Below are positions 3,086-26,580 of a stretch of DNA of 64,000 nucleotides, piece after piece. The DNA lies in IMG/VR virus record IMGVR_UViG_3300010151_000007, positions 1-64,000 of that record; one strand, written 5' to 3'. The number at the start of each line of letters is the position of its first letter. Position 1 is the first letter of the stretch. Below the pieces are notes generated by a model. That model saw only the letters and a program-made list of their open reading frames with translations. It had not been told where the DNA came from and did no database searches. A program made the position numbers and the translations under genes. This DNA comes from a virus.

Positions 3086-4405
3086 ATGAACAATAAATAC
3101 AAACAATTCCTCAATGAATCAACCTATTCTTTCGATTATGATTCCACACTTATCAAATATCGTTATGAGCGTGACGAGAATGGTGAGATCGAAGATGTGG
3201 TCTATGACCAGCCGCACGATGTCAATATCGGTAAACTTCAAGACCTTGCCTCAAAAGGCCATAGAATCGTCATAGTGACCTCTAGAGTGCTCCCTAAGGC
3301 AGATGGAACCCAGTTTGCCTGGGATGACACCCCTGGTCCGGAGCAGTTTATTAGGGACCACGGTTTACCTGTGGAGGAAGTTTTTTACACAGATGGAAAA
3401 CCAAAGATCGACACTCTTGTTAAGCTTGGCGTCGTGGCCCATTGGGATGATGATGAGAACGAAATCGAACACATCGATCGATGGAACCGAGAGAATCCAG
3501 ATAAAAGGATCAAGTGGTACCAAGTTCCAGTTGAAGAAGGTTTGACCGAGGCGCTTCGCTCCAAGGTTATCAAATTGATTGATGAAAATCAGAACGCAAA
3601 TTTAGAACAAATGATTATGGACCAGTTCTCTTCTCACCCATCAGGTCGTCCTTATGAAAATTCACAACTGACAGAAGAAGTAAATTTGGACAACATCCTT
3701 TCAGGATTTGATGACAGATATCTATTAGGTTTTATCAGGCGCTTGAAAGAGGGTACTTTAGAAAGAGAAGGTCTTCGCGACGTCCTGACTGCAAGATCAA
3801 TTTATTTGTTCACAACACATAGTGTCAAGACTTTAAGAGATCCTGAACTTTTCGATTCTGATAAAGCTCGCGGCATTATTGCGGGGACTTCATACTTTTT
3901 AGGCTTTAGAGGGCCAGGGGTGATATCCGGAAAAAAGGCGACGGCGTTGTTTGCCAAAATACCGACAAAACTTATCTACCAAATTGCAAATAACATCGTC
4001 GTCAAGCTTGCAAGGCTTGAAAATCCGTTGGGGACCACAACTATTTCTCGCGGAATGGTTTTGCCAACCACGGCGGTCGATGAATTGATTCAAAACGGTG
4101 TAGGTACGACTTTCAACATGCGGAGCATTGCTTCGTGGACAGATGATTTCGATACGGCGTTTAGTTTTGCGAGGGGAGCCCATGAGACAAAGATAAAAGA
4201 AGATGACAAAAATAGAGAAGAATATCAAAAAGTATTATTTGTCGCCGAAAACTCAAAGTTTGGAATCGGTATCGAAGATCTTAGTGGATATTCATCGGAA
4301 CAAGAATATATAGTGGGTGGTCGCCAAATGATTATTAAACAAGTCATTATTAAACGACCACTGAAAGGAGCGTCTTGGGCAATCATCAAGGTTGAACTTC
4401 GTTAA
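3086..4405 (+). CDS. HAD-like phosphatase fused to R-S-E ADP-ribosyltransferase
   Basis: A 439-residue protein. Residues 1-11 are a leader variant (M-N-N-K-Y-K-Q-F-L-N-E) ending in L-N-E. Residues 15-150 look like a small HAD hydrolase: F-D-Y-D-S-T-L (D17, D19), I-V-T-S-R near 63-67 and W-D-D-D near 120. The C-terminal half is an ADP-ribosyltransferase of the R-S-E type: R322 in S-R-G-M, S-W-T at 350-352, and E405-Q-E407 before a Y-I-V-G-G strand. A linker with S-S-H-P-S-G-R-P-Y is shared with the paralogue at 4945. Addition and removal of a modification by one injected protein is a possible role; this is inference. Confidence 0.75.
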   Translation: MNNKYKQFLNESTYSFDYDSTLIKYRYERDENGEIEDVVYDQPHDVNIGKLQDLASKGHRIVIVTSRVLPKADGTQFAWDDTPGPEQFIRDHGLPVEEVFYTDGKPKIDTLVKLGVVAHWDDDENEIEHIDRWNRENPDKRIKWYQVPVEEGLTEALRSKVIKLIDENQNANLEQMIMDQFSSHPSGRPYENSQLTEEVNLDNILSGFDDRYLLGFIRRLKEGTLEREGLRDVLTARSIYLFTTHSVKTLRDPELFDSDKARGIIAGTSYFLGFRGPGVISGKKATALFAKIPTKLIYQIANNIVVKLARLENPLGTTTISRGMVLPTTAVDELIQNGVGTTFNMRSIASWTDDFDTAFSFARGAHETKIKEDDKNREEYQKVLFVAENSKFGIGIEDLSGYSSEQEYIVGGRQMIIKQVIIKRPLKGASWAIIKVELR

Positions 4406-13379: not shown

Positions 13380-13541
13380 ATGATGGGGAAATTAATAAAC
13401 AAGATTTTTTTCTATATAAACTCAATCCCCGATCGTCACGGAGAGTATATCTCGATATCTATCCTCTTGGGGTGGAATTTTTTTATCCTCTTTCTGGCTT
13501 GGTGTTGTGAGGAGAACAACTTATGGATTCAAAAATTCTAA
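13380..13541 (+). CDS. possible 53-residue membrane protein
   Basis: ATG 13380 (a second ATG follows) opens a short frame between the lipoprotein and the amidoligase gene, overlapping the latter's start by 19 bases. Residues about 23-42 are hydrophobic (I-S-I-S-I-L-L-G-W-N-F-F-I-L-F-L-A-W-C-C) and preceded by a charged stretch, so one transmembrane helix is likely. The ribosome site is poor. The position fits a gene paired with the lipoprotein; the weak start keeps confidence low. Confidence 0.4.
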   Translation: MMGKLINKIFFYINSIPDRHGEYISISILLGWNFFILFLAWCCEENNLWIQKF

Positions 13542-15739
13542 AAGAATATACGAGAGTCAACGCTCAAGAGATGATGAGCAGTGAATCGGAATTTACGATT
13601 TCTTATGAAATTGAATTAGCTGCAAAAGAGCAGATGCGGCCCGAAAATGTAAAAGATTTGAAAGGCATTGAAAGTAGTCCCGAAGCCACAGCTAAAAAGG
13701 AAGCTTATTTCCTATCTCCGGAAGAGAAGAAATACCTTATTCTCAACTTATTTCGTATAGAACCAACAAAGTTGGCTGATTCAAAATACGTGGCTTCTAT
13801 GTTTTTTATGAGAGTCTTGCGAGACGAAATCTCTACAGAGGATATAAAAGAAACAATTTTAAACGTAGCACAAGATCTGACAGGTCGAGAATACGTTTCA
13901 GAATTCTTCAAAGCGTTCGAAATTGATGATACAAACACTATGGTTGAACTTGTTCAAGATTCTCTGGTTCATATCGGAAAGTTCCTGGATGAAGTCGCAA
14001 TTCAACCAAGAAACATCAAAGATCTATTAGAAAGCTTGAATTCAACGATCGCTAGAGGGGATACCGGCGACGAGGCGCGATGGGTTCTTGGTAAGCTAAA
14101 AAAACACTTGGCCATTGCTATTGCGGAAAGGGTCGGTCAGATAGAAGGCCGAACCGTATTCGCTTCAGGGGACGGTGACAACTACAACTACAAAAATGTT
14201 CAAGATCCGGTATTTATCGCTTACTTACAACATTTCCTACCAAATTTCATGAACAAATGGGAAGATAGACTAAAAATCGAAGTTGAATATAGCTTCCTGC
14301 GCGGTCAAGGCGTTGAATTTTCAATGAAGAAATACCTCAACGGTATTGATGAAGCTTTTGAATTTCTAGATGACTTGTATACAGAACTTGATGCACAGGA
14401 TTTCTTTTTTATGAAAGAAGACTTAACCGGACTGCACATCAATATTGGTACAACCGCAAAAAGACCATACAATCTAATGAAAGGTTTTCTTTATCTCGAC
14501 GAAGAGCAGAAGGGGGGTGGTTCGATGGCGAGGCGAGGACTATCTGACGCCAGAGTGTTCTCCAGGTGGGCTGGTACAGTAAAAGATGTTGCTTACTTGA
14601 AAATCCTTGAAACAATTGAAACCTTAATTGAAGAAGAGCCTGAATTTTGGTACCAAGGGATTATCCACGACCTTAAAAGGAGTCTCAAAAACCCAGAAGC
14701 GGGTTTAAGCAGTATCGAGAAGATTTTAAGTAATTGTATATTTAACGCCGCGCAAAATAAAGGCGCAAAAGATCTTGGTTTCAACGTATTATATACAAGA
14801 GGTCGAGACGGTGACTCCAACATAAGTTATGTTGAATTTAGATATCCAGGGGGTGTGGTTGATAGCAAAACGATGAAAGATTTGACCCTATATTACTGCT
14901 ACCTTGTTCTCCTCATGTCTGATCCGGACTTCAAAAAGAACGATTATCTTTCCAAGCTGGTTGGGTTCCTTAATAAAGTGTCCACACACCAAATGGAAGT
15001 TGTTGGTAAGAGGGCTAAACTTTTCAGGGCTGGAATGGGCTTCTATGTTGGAGGCTCCTTCAATCTTGATATCTTGATGATGAATACTCGCGATTTGGAG
15101 AAACGCAAGGTAGCATCATATGATATTCCGGTACCGATTAAAATACGTCATGTTTATTCATTAGTCGATATCATTTCTGTAAAAGATGAATATGGTGATG
15201 AAGAGTCTAGAAGCATAAGAAGAGCTATCGCCACAAAACCTTCACACATGATGGAGGAAACAGATTATGTCCCTGTTATGGTAAAGATTAAAGATGTCAA
15301 GCCAGAAGAAGATGAATATCTTGTCAGTTTCTTCTATGTTGATCAGAATTTAGAAGTCAAGGAATATGAAAGCTGGTTAGCCTCCTTTGAACTGTTAGAA
15401 TTCGTCTATATCAACCTCAATGATGAGATTTTCGAGGCCGATAGCTTAGTTGACGGCTACAAGCTTTCAAAGGACATAGCGAGAACATATGATGCATATG
15501 CGGAAGAAGTTCGCAAGGGTATCAAGTTCAGTTACGACATAGAGCAGGTCCAGAGCAATTATCGACAAGATCAAGATCTGAAAAACATAAAACAAAACAT
15601 AATTACTCTTGTCAAGGCAAGAGACAAGGGTACAATAAGCCAAGACCAACTACGTGCTGCCTTATTGAACATCAAGCAATCACAACCAGAGGCGGCACAA
15701 AAGTACAAAGCTTTGTTCGGCGCTCTATTAGGAAACTAA
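13523..15739 (+). CDS. putative amidoligase-like (carboxylate-amine ligase) protein
   Basis: A 738-residue protein with a good site (GAGGAGAAC) before ATG 13523. Key features are S-Y-E-I-E-L early (E29, E31), G-L-H-I-N-I-G near residue 310-316, and Y-V-E-F-R-Y-P-G-G near 435-443. This order of E-x-E, H-x-N-x-G and E-F-R-x-P-G is that of the amidoligase family (glutamine-synthetase-like fold, ATP-dependent amide bond formation). The N-terminal 200 residues and the C-terminal tail are extra. Amidoligases often stand beside peptidases, and here HExxH proteins lie on both sides. The substrate (peptide tag, cell wall or capsid protein) is unknown. Confidence 0.6.
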   Translation: MDSKILKEYTRVNAQEMMSSESEFTISYEIELAAKEQMRPENVKDLKGIESSPEATAKKEAYFLSPEEKKYLILNLFRIEPTKLADSKYVASMFFMRVLRDEISTEDIKETILNVAQDLTGREYVSEFFKAFEIDDTNTMVELVQDSLVHIGKFLDEVAIQPRNIKDLLESLNSTIARGDTGDEARWVLGKLKKHLAIAIAERVGQIEGRTVFASGDGDNYNYKNVQDPVFIAYLQHFLPNFMNKWEDRLKIEVEYSFLRGQGVEFSMKKYLNGIDEAFEFLDDLYTELDAQDFFFMKEDLTGLHINIGTTAKRPYNLMKGFLYLDEEQKGGGSMARRGLSDARVFSRWAGTVKDVAYLKILETIETLIEEEPEFWYQGIIHDLKRSLKNPEAGLSSIEKILSNCIFNAAQNKGAKDLGFNVLYTRGRDGDSNISYVEFRYPGGVVDSKTMKDLTLYYCYLVLLMSDPDFKKNDYLSKLVGFLNKVSTHQMEVVGKRAKLFRAGMGFYVGGSFNLDILMMNTRDLEKRKVASYDIPVPIKIRHVYSLVDIISVKDEYGDEESRSIRRAIATKPSHMMEETDYVPVMVKIKDVKPEEDEYLVSFFYVDQNLEVKEYESWLASFELLEFVYINLNDEIFEADSLVDGYKLSKDIARTYDAYAEEVRKGIKFSYDIEQVQSNYRQDQDLKNIKQNIITLVKARDKGTISQDQLRAALLNIKQSQPEAAQKYKALFGALLGN

Positions 15740-16091: not shown

Positions 16092-16320
16092 AACTTTTTA
16101 TGATATGAATTTTTCCAACATTCTTCATGAGGTTGGGAATGCTGTTAAATGGAAACACAACATCGCAGCAAAAATTGAATATGGTGTTATTTGCAAAATA
16201 TACAACACATTTATAGGTGGCCGGATGATAAAGTACGCAAACGTCTTTTCCTTAAGTGAACAGAGAATTAAGAAAATAGCAGTATGGAAATTGGAGATAT
16301 TAACTAAAAATGAAATATAA
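16075..16320 (+). CDS. small basic protein of unknown function
   Basis: An 81-residue protein overlapping its upstream neighbour by 17 bases and the downstream peptidase-like gene by 11. Its Y-G-V-I-C-K-I-Y and V-W-K-L-E-I-L segments suggest a compact beta protein like the other short genes at 6497 and 6654. The overlaps and protein-like composition support it; the ribosome site is not clear. Confidence 0.55.
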   Translation: MDISTKTFYDMNFSNILHEVGNAVKWKHNIAAKIEYGVICKIYNTFIGGRMIKYANVFSLSEQRIKKIAVWKLEILTKNEI

Positions 16321-16888
16321 CTTGACAAACGAGTCTCATATTGATACTAATGAAATCGAACCTATTCTGGATAAGTTCATTCCTTACGCCCAGCAGAAGA
16401 TGGGGTTCAATAGGCCCCCGAACCTTTTTCTGACTTCAGACGAGGCTAATGCGTTAGATCCGTTGGGTAAAACCGCATATTTCAACCCAGAAAATGATCA
16501 AATCGTCATTTATACAGACAATCGCCATATCAAAGATGTGTTGCGTTCTATTGGTCACGAATTAGTGCATTTTACACAACGTTGCAATGGGGAACTGGGT
16601 GATGCATCCGGTGCCGCCGAAGACGGCTATGCACAAAAAGACAGTCATTTAAGAGACATGGAAAAACAAGCTTATCAAACCGGTAATATGGTTTTTAGAG
16701 ATTTCGAAGATAACTACAAAAAACAAAGAGAGGGAGTTATGGAAGAAAGCAAAAAAGGTAAAACTCACGATCCCTATGAGCATGAAGGGTGGTATGAAGA
16801 CAAGAAAAAAGATAGAGCAAAAGAACTTTATGATTTGATGCTCAATAAATTTGGCTTAAAAACCAAGAAGAAAACCCTCAAGGATTAA
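16310..16888 (+). CDS. HExxH zinc metallopeptidase-like protein
   Basis: A 192-residue protein. I-G-H-E-L-V-H-F-T-Q puts the zinc helix at H83-E84-H87, and E118 in D-M-E-K-Q-A-Y is a likely third ligand. The tail (residues 130-192) is very Lys/Glu-rich. The HELVHFxQ type motif is common in small phage metallopeptidases of unknown target. It is the second gluzincin-like protein in this block, 3.4 kb from the first, with the amidoligase-like gene between them. A GGAG lies about 12 bases before the start. Confidence 0.7.
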   Translation: MKYNLTNESHIDTNEIEPILDKFIPYAQQKMGFNRPPNLFLTSDEANALDPLGKTAYFNPENDQIVIYTDNRHIKDVLRSIGHELVHFTQRCNGELGDASGAAEDGYAQKDSHLRDMEKQAYQTGNMVFRDFEDNYKKQREGVMEESKKGKTHDPYEHEGWYEDKKKDRAKELYDLMLNKFGLKTKKKTLKD

Positions 16889-18689: not shown

Positions 18690-21449
18690 ATGGGTAAAAT
18701 TTTACTTGAAGGTGGAAACATCTTTAAAGATGCCAATAAGACCCCACTAACTCAAAGGATTAATCGGGCAGATGTAGATCCAACTATTCGATGGCTGGAG
18801 GTTCTTCTCGACATATCTTTGATCGATCACAAACTTGGGACAACTGGTAAAAAACCAACTTCAGGAGATCTCGATCTCGCTGTTGATGAAACCCAAGTCT
18901 CGAAAGAGGATTTGATGAATGTTCTCAAGGCTTGGGTCAAACAAAACCACCCCAAAGATCGTATGAGATCTTGGGTTGCAAAATCTGGTATTAGCCTTCA
19001 TTTCAAAACACCAATCAACGGTGATGACAGCCAAGGCTATGTCCAGACAGATTTGATGTTTGGTGATCCTCAATATATGGCTTGGTCTAGCCAAGGTGAA
19101 CCGGGTGAACAATATCGCGGACAACATAGAATGATCCTCCTTAATTCTATCGCTTCGGCAAAAGGTTATAAGTGGTCGGGATTTAATGGTCTAACCAATC
19201 GAAAAACCATGGAGAAAACAACTGATATCCAGCAGATAACAGATATTCTTTTAGGTCCTGATGGGAGTCCTGATGATTTAACAACAATTCCTAGAATCCT
19301 TGCCGCAATATCGGGTGATGAGAATTACGATCAGTTAGTCGCGATGGCGATTGAAACTTTCCCCAAGTTCGGAGTTAAATTCCCAGAAAGAACCTCTTCA
19401 CTATCAGAATCTATTCTTTTAGAGGGTGGTCTTGCCGGACACATGAGTCATCTTCATGAAAATCCAAACCTGACCTTTCATGAGATCAAAGAGATCTTCA
19501 AAAAGGCCGCCAACGGTCAACTTGAGGGCACAGAGAAAACAGATGGCCAAAACATCTTTATTTCATACAACGTAAATGATGGAACAGCAAGGGCTGGTCG
19601 AAATAAAACGAATATAAAAAACGGTGGTATGACTTCTGACGAACTCGCTGCCAAGTTTGCCGGTCGCGGCGAAGTCGAATGGGCTTTCCGCGATGCATTT
19701 GGTGCTTTCGAAAGGGCTGTAGCGAAATTTACACCTGATGAGCAGATAGCAATCTTTGGTGATGACACAAACATCTATTATAACGCAGAGATTCAGGATC
19801 CTCGTAATGCAAATACTATTAACTACGATCGTAAAACTTTGACTATTCACAGAGTGGGTCACGGAGAGTTCAACCGCACCACTGGCGTCAAAACCGAACG
19901 CGACGTGACAAGACAGGCGTTCATGCTTGGCAAAACATTGGAGAGGACGCAAGAACAGATTCAGGACGAAGAATTTCGTATTGAAATCAATGCAATCAGA
20001 AAATTGCAGCAATTATCCGAACAAAAGCCTTTGAACGATGCTTTAGAACAATTAGAAAGTATCATGGATTTGGAAGGAATCAGTGACAATCATTCGGTTG
20101 GAGATTATCTTGTTTCACGCCTTGCTAAAACTGTCGATTATTGGGTGCCGGGTATCCCTGCCGGGACGAAGCAAGTAATCTTAAAAAGATTGTTGGGCGA
20201 AAAGGGTACAAATATTCGACACATTTTAGCTTCTGTTCCAGAAGATATGAAAGATGATATCAGGGAAATGTTGGGTGACTCAAAGTCAATTATTAAAGAC
20301 GCCGTCTCTCCTTTGGAGGGTATCATTCACACATTTTCTGTAGAAATGCTAAGCAACTTGGAGAGTGCTTTCATTCTGGATAATGAAAAAGAAGTCAATC
20401 GCCTTCAAGCGATGATACGTAAGGCGATCAAGTTAATCAAGAAAAGCAAACGCGAAGACGCAATGGAAATCCTACAAACACAACTGACTAAACTCAAGAG
20501 TGTCGAAAAGATTTCCTCCGCTGTTGAAGGGTTCGTTTTTGATTACAATGGAAGCACCTATAAGTTTACTGGGAACTTTACGCCGATTAATAACATTCTT
20601 GGGATGTTCACTTATGGTACCAAAGATTTTACTCCGTTGGATTTCGATTCTGACGACGATACGATAGCCGAGAGCGAGTCGGACGGTTCAAAGGGGTCTC
20701 CAGTGGTTCGACGCCTTGCGATCGTACCAGGAGCCTTCAAGCCGCCTCACAAGGGACATCTAGCGATGGTCATGCATTACGCAGAACTGGTCGACAAGGT
20801 AATCGTGATGGTTTCCCCTCTTTCAAGGCAGACGCCTTCAGGGAAAGACATCGGTTTCGGGGCGTCGGAAGCTATTTGGGGGCTTTACCTAGATGCTTAT
20901 GGGTTACGAGAAAAGGTTCAGGTTGTTCGTTCGCCGGTAAACTCTCCAGTCCGTGCGGCATTTGATTTTGTTGCGAATGAAGACAGTAACCCATTGTTTG
21001 CGCAAGCTGGGGATTTAATAATTCTTGGAACCAGCACGAAGGGCGGTGATCAATCGAGGTTCAACCAGAACCTTCAACAATACGCTGGGGCAGGTGTGAC
21101 TATCGCTAATGCGCTAGAATATGCTTACACTCCTCAAGAAGAACATGCATTAAGCGCATCGGATTTTAGAAAGATTCTGGAAACTGGCGGAAGTGAAGAG
21201 CTTGAAAGATTTATTCCAAAGAAAGTAGATCATCAACAAGTGTATGATATCCTTCAGCGGGCCGCAGGACTAGAAGAGAAGAAAAAACCTTATATGGAGC
21301 CACACATGCACCAAGACCAAGAAATGGTTGACGAAACGTCAACTGTGGCTGCTGTTGGTGGTTTTGCAGGTTCGGTTAAACCAAAATACAATAGAAAAGA
21401 AATAGTCGAATCAGTTTTCAACTACTTATTAGGGAAAGAGGTGTTATAA
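18690..21449 (+). CDS. tripartite nucleotidyltransferase: Pol-beta-like, ligase-like and HxGH domains
   Basis: A 919-residue protein with three nucleotidyl-transfer folds. Residues 1-230: Pol-beta-like, with G-D-L-D-L-A-V (D60, D62) and D121 in Q-T-D-L-M-F. Residues 240-650: covalent ligase-like, with nucleotidyl-Lys motif E-K-T-D-G (K283), R-A-G-R-N-K (301-306), motif III-like N-A-E-I-Q-D (E367), motif IV-like E-G-F-V-F (E613), motif V-like Y-K-F-T-G (K625), and a long helical insert at about 405-605. Residues 672-860: cytidylyltransferase/NMNAT-like, with F-K-P-P-H-K-G-H (H687, H690) and S-A-S-D-F-R-K. The short segment I-L-L-E-G-G occurs before both of the first two domains. RNA or nucleotide-cofactor repair is a reasonable guess. 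Confidence 0.7.
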   Translation: MGKILLEGGNIFKDANKTPLTQRINRADVDPTIRWLEVLLDISLIDHKLGTTGKKPTSGDLDLAVDETQVSKEDLMNVLKAWVKQNHPKDRMRSWVAKSGISLHFKTPINGDDSQGYVQTDLMFGDPQYMAWSSQGEPGEQYRGQHRMILLNSIASAKGYKWSGFNGLTNRKTMEKTTDIQQITDILLGPDGSPDDLTTIPRILAAISGDENYDQLVAMAIETFPKFGVKFPERTSSLSESILLEGGLAGHMSHLHENPNLTFHEIKEIFKKAANGQLEGTEKTDGQNIFISYNVNDGTARAGRNKTNIKNGGMTSDELAAKFAGRGEVEWAFRDAFGAFERAVAKFTPDEQIAIFGDDTNIYYNAEIQDPRNANTINYDRKTLTIHRVGHGEFNRTTGVKTERDVTRQAFMLGKTLERTQEQIQDEEFRIEINAIRKLQQLSEQKPLNDALEQLESIMDLEGISDNHSVGDYLVSRLAKTVDYWVPGIPAGTKQVILKRLLGEKGTNIRHILASVPEDMKDDIREMLGDSKSIIKDAVSPLEGIIHTFSVEMLSNLESAFILDNEKEVNRLQAMIRKAIKLIKKSKREDAMEILQTQLTKLKSVEKISSAVEGFVFDYNGSTYKFTGNFTPINNILGMFTYGTKDFTPLDFDSDDDTIAESESDGSKGSPVVRRLAIVPGAFKPPHKGHLAMVMHYAELVDKVIVMVSPLSRQTPSGKDIGFGASEAIWGLYLDAYGLREKVQVVRSPVNSPVRAAFDFVANEDSNPLFAQAGDLIILGTSTKGGDQSRFNQNLQQYAGAGVTIANALEYAYTPQEEHALSASDFRKILETGGSEELERFIPKKVDHQQVYDILQRAAGLEEKKKPYMEPHMHQDQEMVDETSTVAAVGGFAGSVKPKYNRKEIVESVFNYLLGKEVL

Positions 21450-22271
21450 ATGGCAAAGCATGAAGATTTAGCAGAAGAGCTTATGCTAAGATCCAATATT
21501 CGTAGACTTATGCGCAAACAATATAAGCGTAAGTATTTTGAAACATTAACGGAAAATGTTAATCGTTCAAACGAAGAGGTGTATCTACGCAAAGTTGTTC
21601 GCAAGTTAATTCGCGAAAGAGTGGCGGTTGCTGATAAAGTACCTCACCGTAGTACCGGTATTAATGTGCTTGAAGACTTACTCAAAAAGATCGTGCCAGT
21701 GCTGGAAACCGATTACAAGTCTCTGACGACTGATCGTGAACAAAGAGAATCTTTCCGCAAGCATGTTACTAATGGTATCGACAATTTGTTAGCTCCTACT
21801 GAAATTAATCTTAAAGCAGCAAGAGAGCAAAATCCACTGCCAGACATGGACGCGCCGATGCCTGAAACAGAGTTGGGTGAAGAAGTTGATATAAGTGTTG
21901 GTGATAAATTAGGTGGTGATGACAAATATATCGATATAGGCCGGGACGAGCCCGCACCCGAAGTTGATGACATTGACGACATTGAAAAAAATATCACAAC
22001 AGGCTTAGAAGATCAGGATTTAGACACTACTGGTAAAAACGTAGCCCATTCCTCGTTTAAGAAGATTGAGCAAAATATTCTAGATTCATTCGACTTACTT
22101 AGTAACAGTGAAGATAGAGAAGTGTTTCACGATTACTTAAAGACAAATTTACTATTGTATATGGATAAATTTGAAGATGAATTAACTAATAGCCTCCCAG
22201 ATGTGACGACCGCTCAATACGACCAAGCTACTCGCGGCGGTGAAGAAGGGGATCCGCAGCAACAGTTATAA
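21450..22271 (+). CDS. acidic protein of unknown function, partner of the tripartite protein
   Basis: A 273-residue protein whose ATG follows the previous stop by no base at all, so translation is surely coupled. The N-terminal 60 residues are basic (I-R-R-L-M-R-K-Q-Y-K-R-K), the middle (140-180) is Asp/Glu/Pro-rich and probably disordered, and the C-terminal part is helical and acidic. No family was recognised. The charge layout could suit a nucleic-acid-binding or scaffold-like role; this is speculation. Confidence 0.7.
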   Translation: MAKHEDLAEELMLRSNIRRLMRKQYKRKYFETLTENVNRSNEEVYLRKVVRKLIRERVAVADKVPHRSTGINVLEDLLKKIVPVLETDYKSLTTDREQRESFRKHVTNGIDNLLAPTEINLKAAREQNPLPDMDAPMPETELGEEVDISVGDKLGGDDKYIDIGRDEPAPEVDDIDDIEKNITTGLEDQDLDTTGKNVAHSSFKKIEQNILDSFDLLSNSEDREVFHDYLKTNLLLYMDKFEDELTNSLPDVTTAQYDQATRGGEEGDPQQQL

Positions 22272-22308
22272 AGTATCCGACTGTGTTGAACTTGTCAAGG
22301 GGTTATTT

Positions 22309-22653
22309 TTGAGTTGGAAGAGAAAGAAAGTATATAAAGGTAAAAACGAAAAATATAGTATTCTGGAGAAGTTAAGAAAGAAAAACAAATCCGATACCCA
22401 TTTTGAATTAATGATTTCTAAACTAACACTTGAAGAAGTTATCGCAGTAAAAATGGAATTAGCTGGACAATCTCTGGGCGGTCGTATTTATAACTGGCCT
22501 ATCTGGGATTCCTTGACAGATGTGGTCAGACATGCTATACTTATGTTTACAATGTCAGTAACAAAAAGTAACCGAGAGGCTGCACAGTTTTTAGGGGTAA
22601 CTGAAATTAAGTTAAGAAGAAATAAACTGAAATATCTTGAAGACAAGGATTAA
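22309..22653 (+). CDS. Fis-type helix-turn-helix protein
   Basis: A 114-residue protein. I choose TTG 22309, which has AAGGGG seven bases upstream; the frame is open back to GTG 22240, which would overlap the previous gene. The C-terminus (S-N-R-E-A-A-Q-F-L-G-V-T-E-I-K-L-R-R-N) is a Fis-type helix-turn-helix, and the middle has L-T-L-E-E-V-I-A-V-K-M-E-L-A. Proteins with this layout occur in other large T4-like phages without a known role. It could regulate transcription or organise DNA. Confidence 0.65.
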   Translation: MSWKRKKVYKGKNEKYSILEKLRKKNKSDTHFELMISKLTLEEVIAVKMELAGQSLGGRIYNWPIWDSLTDVVRHAILMFTMSVTKSNREAAQFLGVTEIKLRRNKLKYLEDKD

Positions 22654-22655
22654 TA

Positions 22656-23345
22656 TTGAAAAGAGTAGTCATATCCGATTTACATTTGGGGAATTGTAGT
22701 AGCAATGAAGGGCAACTACTTAATTTCTTATCTGAAATTGAATGTGATCAGTTAATCCTTGCAGGTGATATCATTGATTTTATTAGAATACCTATGTTTT
22801 CAGATTTAACATCTCAAATCTTTAAAATCATTGACAACTTTCAAGGTGAGATAATTTATATTGTCGGTAACCACGATATACCATTAAAAGCTCTTGTTAA
22901 TACAACATTGTTTGGTATTCAATTTAAAGATTTTTATGAATTCATTGATAATAATAAAAAAATAAGAATTGAACATGGCGATCAGTATGAGAAAGGTATT
23001 GTTCATCATCTCACTGTAATGAAAGTGATTTCAATTTTTCAAAATATCATTGAAAGCATTTTCAATATAGATCTTTTAAGTGCATGGGTTAAATTCAGAT
23101 TAAAAAGAAGAAAACTCTTTAACATATGGGATATGATTGTTCCTGAAAAGAAAGAGGATATCGATGTATTGATAGTAGGTCACACCCACACTCCAGAAGT
23201 AATAATCTGGATAGACGAAGTTCAGGCGATAAAAACATACATTAATGTTGGTGATTGGGTTCAGCATACAACATATGTCACAATAGAAAATGGGATAACA
23301 AGGCTTAAATCATATGGAGGAAGTCATGATAGAAATATTGAGTAG
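22656..23345 (+). CDS. LpxH-like metallophosphoesterase
   Basis: A 229-residue calcineurin-type phosphoesterase. Metal ligands are visible: S-D-L-H-L (D8, H10), G-D-I-I-D (D38), G-N-H-D (N72, H73), I-E-H-G-D and V-G-H-T-H-T near 175. The order and length match UDP-2,3-diacylglucosamine hydrolase (lipid A pathway) and related phosphatases. The start is TTG 22656. It overlaps the fatty-acid-hydroxylase-like gene, so both may act on envelope lipid. Base composition is more AT-rich than in the neighbours, which fits recent acquisition. Substrate is inference. Confidence 0.7.
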   Translation: MKRVVISDLHLGNCSSNEGQLLNFLSEIECDQLILAGDIIDFIRIPMFSDLTSQIFKIIDNFQGEIIYIVGNHDIPLKALVNTTLFGIQFKDFYEFIDNNKKIRIEHGDQYEKGIVHHLTVMKVISIFQNIIESIFNIDLLSAWVKFRLKRRKLFNIWDMIVPEKKEDIDVLIVGHTHTPEVIIWIDEVQAIKTYINVGDWVQHTTYVTIENGITRLKSYGGSHDRNIE

Positions 23346-23820: not shown

Positions 23821-24285
23821 ATGTCAAAACCGTTGGTAATGGTCTCTGGCGGACTAGATCCGATTCACAGTGGCCACGTTGCCATGATTCTCGAAGCAGC
23901 AACTTTTGGAGAGGTAGTTGTTGTTTTGAATTCTGATGATTGGCTTGTGAAGAAAAAAGGTTATAAATTCATGTCTTTTGATGAGCGCGCAGCTATTTGC
24001 CAAGGGCTCAAAGGCGTAAAGTTTGTGTCGGCAGTAAAAGATGAAGATGGGACAGTTTGTGAAGCTCTTGAAAGACTCAAACCTGATTTCTTTGCCAACG
24101 GTGGCGACAGAAAAAAAGAGAATACACCAGAGTTAAGGAAATGTAAAGAACTTGGGATCAAGATGTTGTGGAACATCGGTGGCGGGAAGACCCAAAGTTC
24201 ATCCGTCCTTGTAGAGAGGGCTGCCATTTCTGGCGCTGGAGGTTTCGAGAGTTATGTGACTCGCGAAGAAACTGATTTAGATTGA
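23821..24285 (+). CDS. HldE/TagD-like nucleotidyltransferase
   Basis: A 154-residue single-domain cytidylyltransferase-fold protein. D-P-I-H-S-G-H-V (residues 13-20) is the HxGH nucleotide-binding motif, F-A-N-G-G-D-R near 92-98 is typical of the HldE C-terminal adenylyltransferase family, and T-Q-S-S-S-V-L-V fits the (I/S)SSxxI end motif. Likely reaction: transfer of AMP or CMP to a sugar or polyol phosphate for heptose or polyol precursors. It has its own promoter-like site and is followed by a terminator, so it is a single-gene unit between the lipid pair and the RNA methyltransferase. Confidence 0.75.
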   Translation: MSKPLVMVSGGLDPIHSGHVAMILEAATFGEVVVVLNSDDWLVKKKGYKFMSFDERAAICQGLKGVKFVSAVKDEDGTVCEALERLKPDFFANGGDRKKENTPELRKCKELGIKMLWNIGGGKTQSSSVLVERAAISGAGGFESYVTREETDLD

Positions 24286-25189: not shown

Positions 25190-25218
25190 AGTTATTGATG
25201 TGGAGTCGAGGTATTAAA

Positions 25219-26580
25219 ATGGCAGCTAAGAAAACGTATGTGATAGACACGAGTGTTTGTTTGACAGACTATTCCTGTATTGAGAGTTTTGGGAATAATG
25301 ATATAGTTCTCCCACTCAAAGTGCTTGAAGAGATTGACAAACACAAGAAGAGGCAGGATGGTGTGGGTCTTAATGCCCGCTCAATCATTCGGAAGCTTGA
25401 CGAATTGAGGATGAAGGGCAACCTTCAGAAAGGCGTGCGTATCGGTAAAGGCAAAGGGCTTCTAAGAGTCGTAAATAGCGATTTAGAACAATTGCCCGAT
25501 TCTCTTGATAAAAGCATCCCAGATAACAACATCCTTTCTACTGCTTTGTTTGTCAAAAAAGAGAATATAAAAAGAAAGACAATCTTAGTTTCACGAGATA
25601 TCAACATGAGGGTTATCTGTGACTCACTAGGTATGGAATCTGAAGATTTTAGACAGAACCAAGTCATCAAAGAACAGACAGATTTGTTTTCCGGGTTTAA
25701 ACACTTAGTGTGTGATGAGCAGGTTGTTGACGCAATTTATAACAAGGAGACTGTATTCTTAAATGCAGAAGAATACCCTGGCTTGTGTTCGAATCAATTT
25801 CTGATGATGGTTTCTTCAGGGAATGAAAAGAAGACTGCTTTGGTTCGATTTAAAGGGTATGATAAGTCTCTGCGTCACCTAAGGGACCAGAAGAGAGAGA
25901 TTTGGGGAATCACTCCAAGAAACAAAGAACAGATGTTTGCTTTGGATTTGCTAATGGATCCGGATATCAAATTGGTCTCTTTGGTAGGTCGAGCAGGTTC
26001 AGGTAAGACTTTGGTTGCTGTGGCAGCCGCAATGGAACAGACTATTAATGGAAATATGTCTGTTCATGATGTTGCGAAAGGGAAGCATAAGAGCGATTGT
26101 CTGTATAAGAAAATTGTTGTTTCTCGACCAGTTATGCCAGTTGGTAAGGACATTGGCTTCTTGCCAGGAGATATTCGAGAAAAGATGGCTCCTTGGATTG
26201 CACCAATTTATGATAACTTGAAGTTTCTGACAGATGATAATCAAAAGCTATTGGAAACCTATTTGGACAATTCTTTAATTGAAATTGAAGCTGTTACATA
26301 TATTCGCGGACGTTCAATTGCAAATGCTTTTATTATTGTAGATGAAGCCCAGAATTTAACACAACACGAGATCAAAACAATCTTGACGCGAGTGGGCGAA
26401 GGCACTAAAATCATCTTGACTGGCGATATCGAACAAATCGATAACATCTATATCGATAGCACAAGCTCTGGTTTGGTATACGCTATTGAAAGACTGAAAG
26501 ACTATGATTTTGTTGGTCACATAACTCTTACAAAGGGTGAGCGCTCGACGGTTGCAACCGTTGCATCGAAGGTTCTGTGA
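25219..26580 (+). CDS. phoH: PIN-PhoH family RNase/ATPase
   Basis: A 453-residue protein. I start it at ATG 25219 (GAGG seven bases before) and not at the upstream TTG. The N-terminal PIN RNase domain begins T-Y-V-I-D-T-S-V and has L-P-L-K-V-L-E-E-I-D; S-R-D-I-N-M-R near 130 is its late acidic part. The PhoH ATPase follows: V-G-R-A-G-S-G-K-T (Walker A, about 255-263) and I-I-V-D-E-A-Q-N (Walker B, about 370-377), then T-G-D-I-E-Q-I-D. This is the PhoH2 layout, an RNA helicase plus RNase. phoH is a common auxiliary gene in large aquatic phages; its role there (phosphate stress or RNA turnover) is not settled. Confidence 0.9.
   Translation: MAAKKTYVIDTSVCLTDYSCIESFGNNDIVLPLKVLEEIDKHKKRQDGVGLNARSIIRKLDELRMKGNLQKGVRIGKGKGLLRVVNSDLEQLPDSLDKSIPDNNILSTALFVKKENIKRKTILVSRDINMRVICDSLGMESEDFRQNQVIKEQTDLFSGFKHLVCDEQVVDAIYNKETVFLNAEEYPGLCSNQFLMMVSSGNEKKTALVRFKGYDKSLRHLRDQKREIWGITPRNKEQMFALDLLMDPDIKLVSLVGRAGSGKTLVAVAAAMEQTINGNMSVHDVAKGKHKSDCLYKKIVVSRPVMPVGKDIGFLPGDIREKMAPWIAPIYDNLKFLTDDNQKLLETYLDNSLIEIEAVTYIRGRSIANAFIIVDEAQNLTQHEIKTILTRVGEGTKIILTGDIEQIDNIYIDSTSSGLVYAIERLKDYDFVGHITLTKGERSTVATVASKVL

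Follow-up and report, generated by a model that had tools for sequence, protein, structure and literature searches.

The open reading frame (ORF) at positions 18690-21449 (plus strand) of the window, that is, the whole 64,000-nucleotide stretch of IMG/VR virus record IMGVR_UViG_3300010151_000007 considered here, encodes a 919-residue protein that we regard as probably a single-chain nucleic-acid end-repair and sealing enzyme. Its three consecutive domains are a family X polymerase (PolX)-like nucleotidyltransferase (D1), a ligase-like covalent nucleotidyltransferase with a KxDG motif (D2) and a HIGH-superfamily adenylyltransferase (D3). At the level of sequence it is confirmed that one chain carries three nucleotidyl-transfer domains with intact catalytic residues, as a preliminary description of this DNA had proposed: searches of viral_contigs with domain alignments return more than 589 relatives of D1 and more than 535 of D2, and D3 matches Pfam family PF01467. 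The best 80 hits were kept per scan, and among these the exact D1-D2-D3 order occurs in the window protein only; the full-length 919-residue query found no relative in viral_contigs, where relatives were reached only with the domain alignments. The record comprises 100,326 bases, is matched once by the ORF, and contains T4-type terminase, portal, major head protein, tail sheath and baseplate wedge genes, so that it is a T4-like marine myovirus, probably in the form of a fragment. A plausible ribosome-binding site, gggaag, precedes the ORF.

D1 (residues 1-240; 18690-19409, plus strand) is predicted to be a minimal family X polymerase-like nucleotidyltransferase consisting of palm and thumb, with D60, D62 and D121 as catalytic residues. 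It satisfies the family X palm triad pattern G[ST]..G..(S)GDxD plus a third Asp, and residues G50, G53, D60, D62 and D121 are kept in 64 of 65 distinct homologues, the remaining one having a gap. The AlphaFold2 model is confident (predicted local distance difference test score, pLDDT, 90.4), and the top 50 matches listed by Foldseek against the PDB are all family X polymerases (beta, lambda, mu, TdT), with prob 1.00, E from 2.7e-4 and a query TM-score (TMq) of 0.40-0.49. A bacterial PolX palm and thumb profile aligns with the D1 profile in catalytic register at P=0.0044, as compared with P values of 0.56-0.86 for D1 against ligase profiles. The "Pol-beta-like" label first given to this domain can accordingly be narrowed to family X polymerase-like. 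The model contains neither fingers nor an 8-kDa helix-hairpin-helix (HhH) domain, having only ~25 residues ahead of its first helix, and we therefore name D1 PolX-like and do not class it as a PolX member. No Pfam family matches the window D1; among 28 D1 members none is above the cut-off for PF14791 or PF14792 (the best being one at E=0.07 for PF14792), and none matches the RlaP family, which we take to be PF10127, at E<=1. Assignments of D1 to RlaP, CCA-adding or other Pol-beta families were dropped, being without Pfam support, and sequence-only PDB searches with D1, D2 or DUF6267 (see below) gave chance matches only. A 210-residue minimal PolX-like protein (L185:486-1118; thumb match E 2.2e-4) was also observed in a metagenome-assembled genome (MAG), G003, which contains a D2 contig as well.

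D2 (residues 241-660; 19410-20669, plus strand) carries the KTDG motif I at K283-G286 (19536-19547, plus strand), with K283 as the candidate adenylylated lysine; the K, D and G of this motif are present in all 71 distinct homologues, as are R304, N305, E367, E613, K625 and G628. The ligase-type motifs I (EK-x-DG, K283), III (acid E367), IV (E613-G614) and V (K625) show little or no variation in this set, and in the AlphaFold2 model (pLDDT 86.8) motifs I, III, IV and V lie on strands. The helical insert of ~200 residues noticed earlier is borne out by DSSP on this model, being mostly helical and lying between motifs IIIa and IV (about residues 407-602; 19908-20495, plus strand). The first 13 Foldseek matches in the PDB are all RNA or DNA ligases, none individually significant (E>=0.14, prob <=0.54), and in BFVD family members are followed by a protein of phage PA5oct (E 3.5e-4), after which come many viral RNA ligases, starting at E 6e-3. 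In profile comparisons D2 matches RNA ligases at P=0.0011, with off-target comparisons above 0.03, and shows weak similarity to DUF6267 at P=9e-5 with the motifs in register. A ligase nucleotidyltransferase fold for D2 is coherent with the model, being not formally significant by itself, and the predicted fold of D1 fits, and that of D2 appears to fit, the family that had been named for it. D2 itself matches neither PF19782 (DUF6267) nor any other family in Pfam or PHROGs and, judged by its motifs, is a ligase-like family not previously in either collection; PF09414 and PF01068 have no match in the window protein or elsewhere in the phage record. The idea of D2 as a cellular gene was dropped, the evidence for it being nine MAG contigs only, which are probably phage DNA in the bins.

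D3 (residues 663-870; 20676-21299, plus strand) contains HKGH at 687-690 and S822..R827, and passes PF01467 by a small margin (21.5 bits against a cut-off of 21). A profile of 45 D3 homologues compared with the PDB finds the archaeal NMNAT MJ0541 as best match (8e-12), followed by PPAT and NaMNAT enzymes, and for this reason D3 is best read as NMNAT/PPAT-type, with adenylyl transfer likelier than cytidylyl transfer. The cytidylyltransferase specificity suggested initially was abandoned on these grounds. Among 60 ungapped rows, G681, P685 and H690 are kept in all and F683 in 59, and R827 is present in 64 of 65; the first His of HxGH (H687 in the window) is Gly in 31 of 60 D3 domains. Apart from this GxHH variant in about half of the D3 domains, the key residues of all three domains are conserved across distinct homologues, in agreement with the preliminary description, rather than lost in most of them. 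Proteins with the variant (e.g., L002:11243-13162) may act on a different substrate.

The domains recur in physical linkage in other phages, with changing partners. In 79 of 80 D1 loci, DUF6267 is fused to D1 or lies directly or closely downstream, the exception being cut by a contig end; three representatives of these partners were scanned and match PF19782 at E 1e-32 to 1.5e-37. DUF6267 has KWDG as motif I, D in motif III, E-G in motif IV and K in motif V, kept in 58-62 of 62 domains, and on this sequence evidence is a second KxDG family beside D2. A literature search on DUF6267 found nothing. D2 and D3 are fused, in both orders, in 73 ORFs. A constant association of D1 with D2 was considered and dropped, the usual partner of D1 being DUF6267 and that of D2 being D3. 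A conserved order of metallopeptidase, [X-D3], acidic protein and Fis-like protein is seen in 79 new loci, with slot X occupied by D2 in 31 and by DUF6267 in 30, so that ligase-type chemistry would persist across a change of family. Four proteins (L088, L089, L099, L104) combine D1, DUF6267, D3 and the acidic protein, in that order, in one chain. In the jumbo phages Atu_ph07 and Phosso, D1 is overlapped by a gene whose product resembles RNA ligases (EKLDGSF); the PF09414 matches, at E=0.002 and 0.085, do not reach the family cut-off. PA5oct has a D2-like KxDG gene a short distance upstream of D1, the two being separated by two genes. Together, the three jumbo-phage ligase-like proteins match the D2 profile at P=1.3e-4.

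Several unusual architectures were noted in addition. By eye, the N-terminal parts of two large D3 proteins resemble a diverged Pol-beta-like nucleotidyltransferase and a ligase-like domain (L267:4534-8004, with KMDS for KxDG, and L320:4542-8762), and these are possibly further tripartite versions. A 531-residue protein (L278:964-2559) is a D1-D3 fusion without the ligase-like middle domain, and in L307:2042-4027 a motif I variant, EKLAGQN, comes after D1.

What the analysis shows are the domains, their intact catalytic residues, the predicted folds of D1 and D2 and the recurrent physical linkage; from these we infer the following reaction steps, along with the substrate and the part played by D3. 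D1 would add missing nucleotides at a 3' end or fill a short gap; D2 would self-adenylylate on K283, pass the AMP to a 5'-phosphate and seal the break; and D3 would use ATP, most likely moving AMP onto a 5'-phosphate partner, which may be a nucleic-acid end, or nicotinamide mononucleotide (NMN) to sustain nicotinamide adenine dinucleotide (NAD). In relatives, a polynucleotide kinase (PNK)-like P-loop kinase could provide the 5'-phosphate. A PolX-like domain persistently linked to KxDG domains that can replace one another is most simply explained if D1 adds nucleotides or fills gaps and D2 then seals. Of the functions considered at the outset (RNA repair, an NAD-like cofactor, or capping), gene context and structure favour nucleic-acid repair, since a PolX-like domain almost always stands beside a ligase-like KxDG domain, RNA ligases are nearest to D2 in structure, PNK-like kinases are fused or adjacent in relatives and a PhoH-PIN protein is nearby; cofactor synthesis or capping may still apply to D3 alone. 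The substrate is close to evenly balanced, with RNA cut by host defence slightly ahead of DNA gaps: RNA ligases are both the nearest folds and the partners in jumbo phages, and fused kinases occur, all of which speaks for RNA, whereas the likeness to PolX and the position in a replication module speak for DNA. A bolder version, which we hold to be improbable, is that the HIGH adenylyltransferase acts directly on the 5'-phosphate ends of nucleic acids, activating them (AppRNA/AppDNA or an NAD-like cap) for the KxDG ligase clade comprising D2, DUF6267 and the jumbo-phage relatives, aided by the mini PolX and, in some phages, by the fused kinase, as an unrecognized class of repair machine.

The absence of any other recognized ATP ligase besides D2 in the phage record counts in favour of end repair and sealing. 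Two precedents also speak for it, the viral PolX-ligase fusion PgVPolX (PMC5537341) and, in phages, the association of RlaP with RNA ligases (PMC7824862). A number of observations weigh against it. No known ligase mechanism calls for D3, whose HxGH is altered in half of the homologues; the D2-ligase matches in the PDB are weak, and sequence profiles tie D2 to ligases at P about 0.001 only; no tRNA genes were found in the phage record. No D1 counterpart was found in 21 records with D2-D3 or D3-D2, in a search made without a positive control, so the three-part combination is not obligatory. In cyanophages the pair of DUF6267 and a HIGH "cytidyltransferase" follows gp43-uvsX-gp41-mazG, and this gp43-uvsX-gp41 context of relatives suggests DNA.

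Among other explanations, a virion-delivered multi-domain effector of the polyvalent-protein type, which early in the infection would modify host proteins or nucleic acids by nucleotidylation instead of repairing breaks, appears unlikely to us. It would agree with the late-gene context of D3-D2 genes, in which the locus also holds large terminase in 58 of 66 cases and often portal and prohead protease, with the syntenic HExxH metallopeptidase that is fused once, with a ParB_N-like region in L003, and with the annotation of the PA5oct D1 homologue as a structural protein by electrospray ionization tandem mass spectrometry (ESI-MS/MS); polyvalent proteins are described as joining a peptidase with other domains near late genes (PMC5512222). 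However, a repair role is compatible with virion packaging, the KxDG-D3 pair of cyanophages sits in a replication module, and the specific pairing of D1 with a ligase-like domain would be left unexplained.

A further alternative is salvage or remodelling of NAD(P) or another cofactor, where D3 would make NAD from NMN, the kinase of relatives would phosphorylate nicotinamide riboside in a NadR-like manner and D2 would act on small molecules. NadV, NadM and NadR are carried by phages against NADases (PMC9503650), the archaeal NMNAT is the best profile match of D3 and the combination of kinase and HIGH domain recalls NadR, yet D1 has no place in this scheme, nor has a conserved KxDG domain that carries motifs I, III, IV and V. 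Furthermore, most of these loci link D3 with a KxDG domain, and a Pfam search of the window protein found no Nudix or NadR/nicotinamide riboside kinase domain; we consider a cofactor pathway slightly less probable still than an effector. Least probable is that D2 and DUF6267 are degenerate or non-enzymatic nucleotide-binding scaffolds for virion assembly. The frequent location of the genes within head modules and the weak Foldseek likeness to ligases would be in line with this, but the catalytic Lys, the motif III acid, the motif IV E-G and the motif V Lys vary little or not at all among 71 D2 and 62 DUF6267 domains.

RNA repair by T4 Pnkp/Rnl1 relies on kinase and ligase modules that heal and seal. 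Bacterial Pnkp1-Rnl-Hen1 (PMC4411300) likewise has kinase and ligase modules for healing and sealing, comparable to the D3-D2 relatives with a P-loop kinase; both systems differ from the present one, in which no Hen1 or phosphatase domain was found, the ligase family is another one and there are extra PolX-like and HIGH domains. The PolX-NAD+ ligase of Phaeocystis globosa virus, PgVPolX, which fills gaps and seals nicks in DNA (PMC5537341), is also a viral single chain with a family X polymerase-like core and a ligase domain. It is, however, an NAD+-dependent DNA ligase of a eukaryotic giant virus without a HIGH domain, while the ligase-like part of the window protein belongs to a KTDG family with a helical insert. 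RlaP is a Pol-beta-superfamily nucleotidyltransferase tied to ATP-grasp RNA ligases in large phages and predicted to restore lost nucleotides before ligation (PMC7824862). D1 is similarly tied in genomes to a KxDG ligase (DUF6267 in the loci counted above, and the genes of Atu_ph07, Phosso and PA5oct), but it has no RlaP Pfam match, is modelled as family X palm and thumb, and is partnered by DUF6267 and an unnamed KTDG family. DUF6267 (PF19782) resembles D2 in its KxDG and motifs III, IV and V, the long segment between motifs IIIa and IV and the genomic slot that it occupies; D2 lacks a PF19782 match, and the function of DUF6267 is unassigned in Pfam. D3 shares the GxFxPxHxGH and S...R motifs with the NMNAT/PPAT HIGH enzymes (PF01467), from which it differs in its fusion to KxDG ligase-like domains and in the GxHH of half of its homologues. 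The domain architecture is new; the underlying kind, a repair polymerase with a ligase, is already known.

End repair and sealing would provide a predicted function for DUF6267, a family common in many marine T4-like phages without an assigned role. Together, the D2 and DUF6267 findings point to a widespread phage module of PolX-like nucleotidyltransferase, KxDG ligase and NMNAT-like enzyme. Should it prove active, abundant ocean viruses would have in it a pathway for anti-defence or genome repair, and it might also yield new joining enzymes.

The neighbouring genes are partly conserved as well. Directly downstream is the acidic-linker protein (AC; 21450-22271, plus strand), a conserved partner with 320 relatives in an AC-based scan, which is fused to the D3 C terminus in L010, L011, L020, L088, L089, L099, L104 and L334. 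It is followed by a small conserved protein (22240-22653, plus strand) syntenic with it. The coupling to an acidic and a Fis-like protein pointed out earlier holds as synteny in relatives, without Pfam or PHROG support for the "Fis-like" label. Upstream, a syntenic HExxH (HELVH) metallopeptidase-like protein (MPT; 16310-16888, plus strand) has a weak match to MPTase-PolyVal (E=0.089), the single fusion being an MPT-D2-D3 protein in L014. A P-loop kinase matching Zeta_toxin/AAA_33, with a weak PNK PHROG match (1.6e-5), forms one chain with D3-D2 in five proteins and lies close by in eight loci. The PIN-PhoH protein (25195-26580, plus strand; Pfam PhoH 5.5e-51, PIN_4 1.4e-27) is conserved nearby in 15 of the 18 close relatives of the window, and PhoH-PIN has been discussed alongside RNA functions (PMC7824862).

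Proteins that by eye resemble PD-(D/E)XK-type nucleases lie beside DUF6267 or ligase-like genes of pelagiphage, Methylophilales phage, cyanophage and PA5oct (L170:3914-4972, L171:3929-5014, L168:4157-4936, L006:6647-7666), with no convincing Pfam match in the two that were scanned. Within the window, a second, separate HIGH nucleotidyltransferase gene (23821-24285; PF01467 8e-9) perhaps serves nucleotide-sugar synthesis, in view of the glycosyltransferase genes downstream. A 738-residue protein (13523-15739) without significant Pfam match contains a GLHIN-like motif, presumably similar to that of amidoligases, and a 439-residue protein (3086-4405) gives weak PHROG matches to polynucleotide kinase and phosphoheptose isomerase (~2e-4). 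Just downstream of the operon lies a calcineurin-like phosphoesterase (22656-23345), a type of enzyme regarded as a possible end-cleaning phosphatase in phage RNA repair (PMC7824862).
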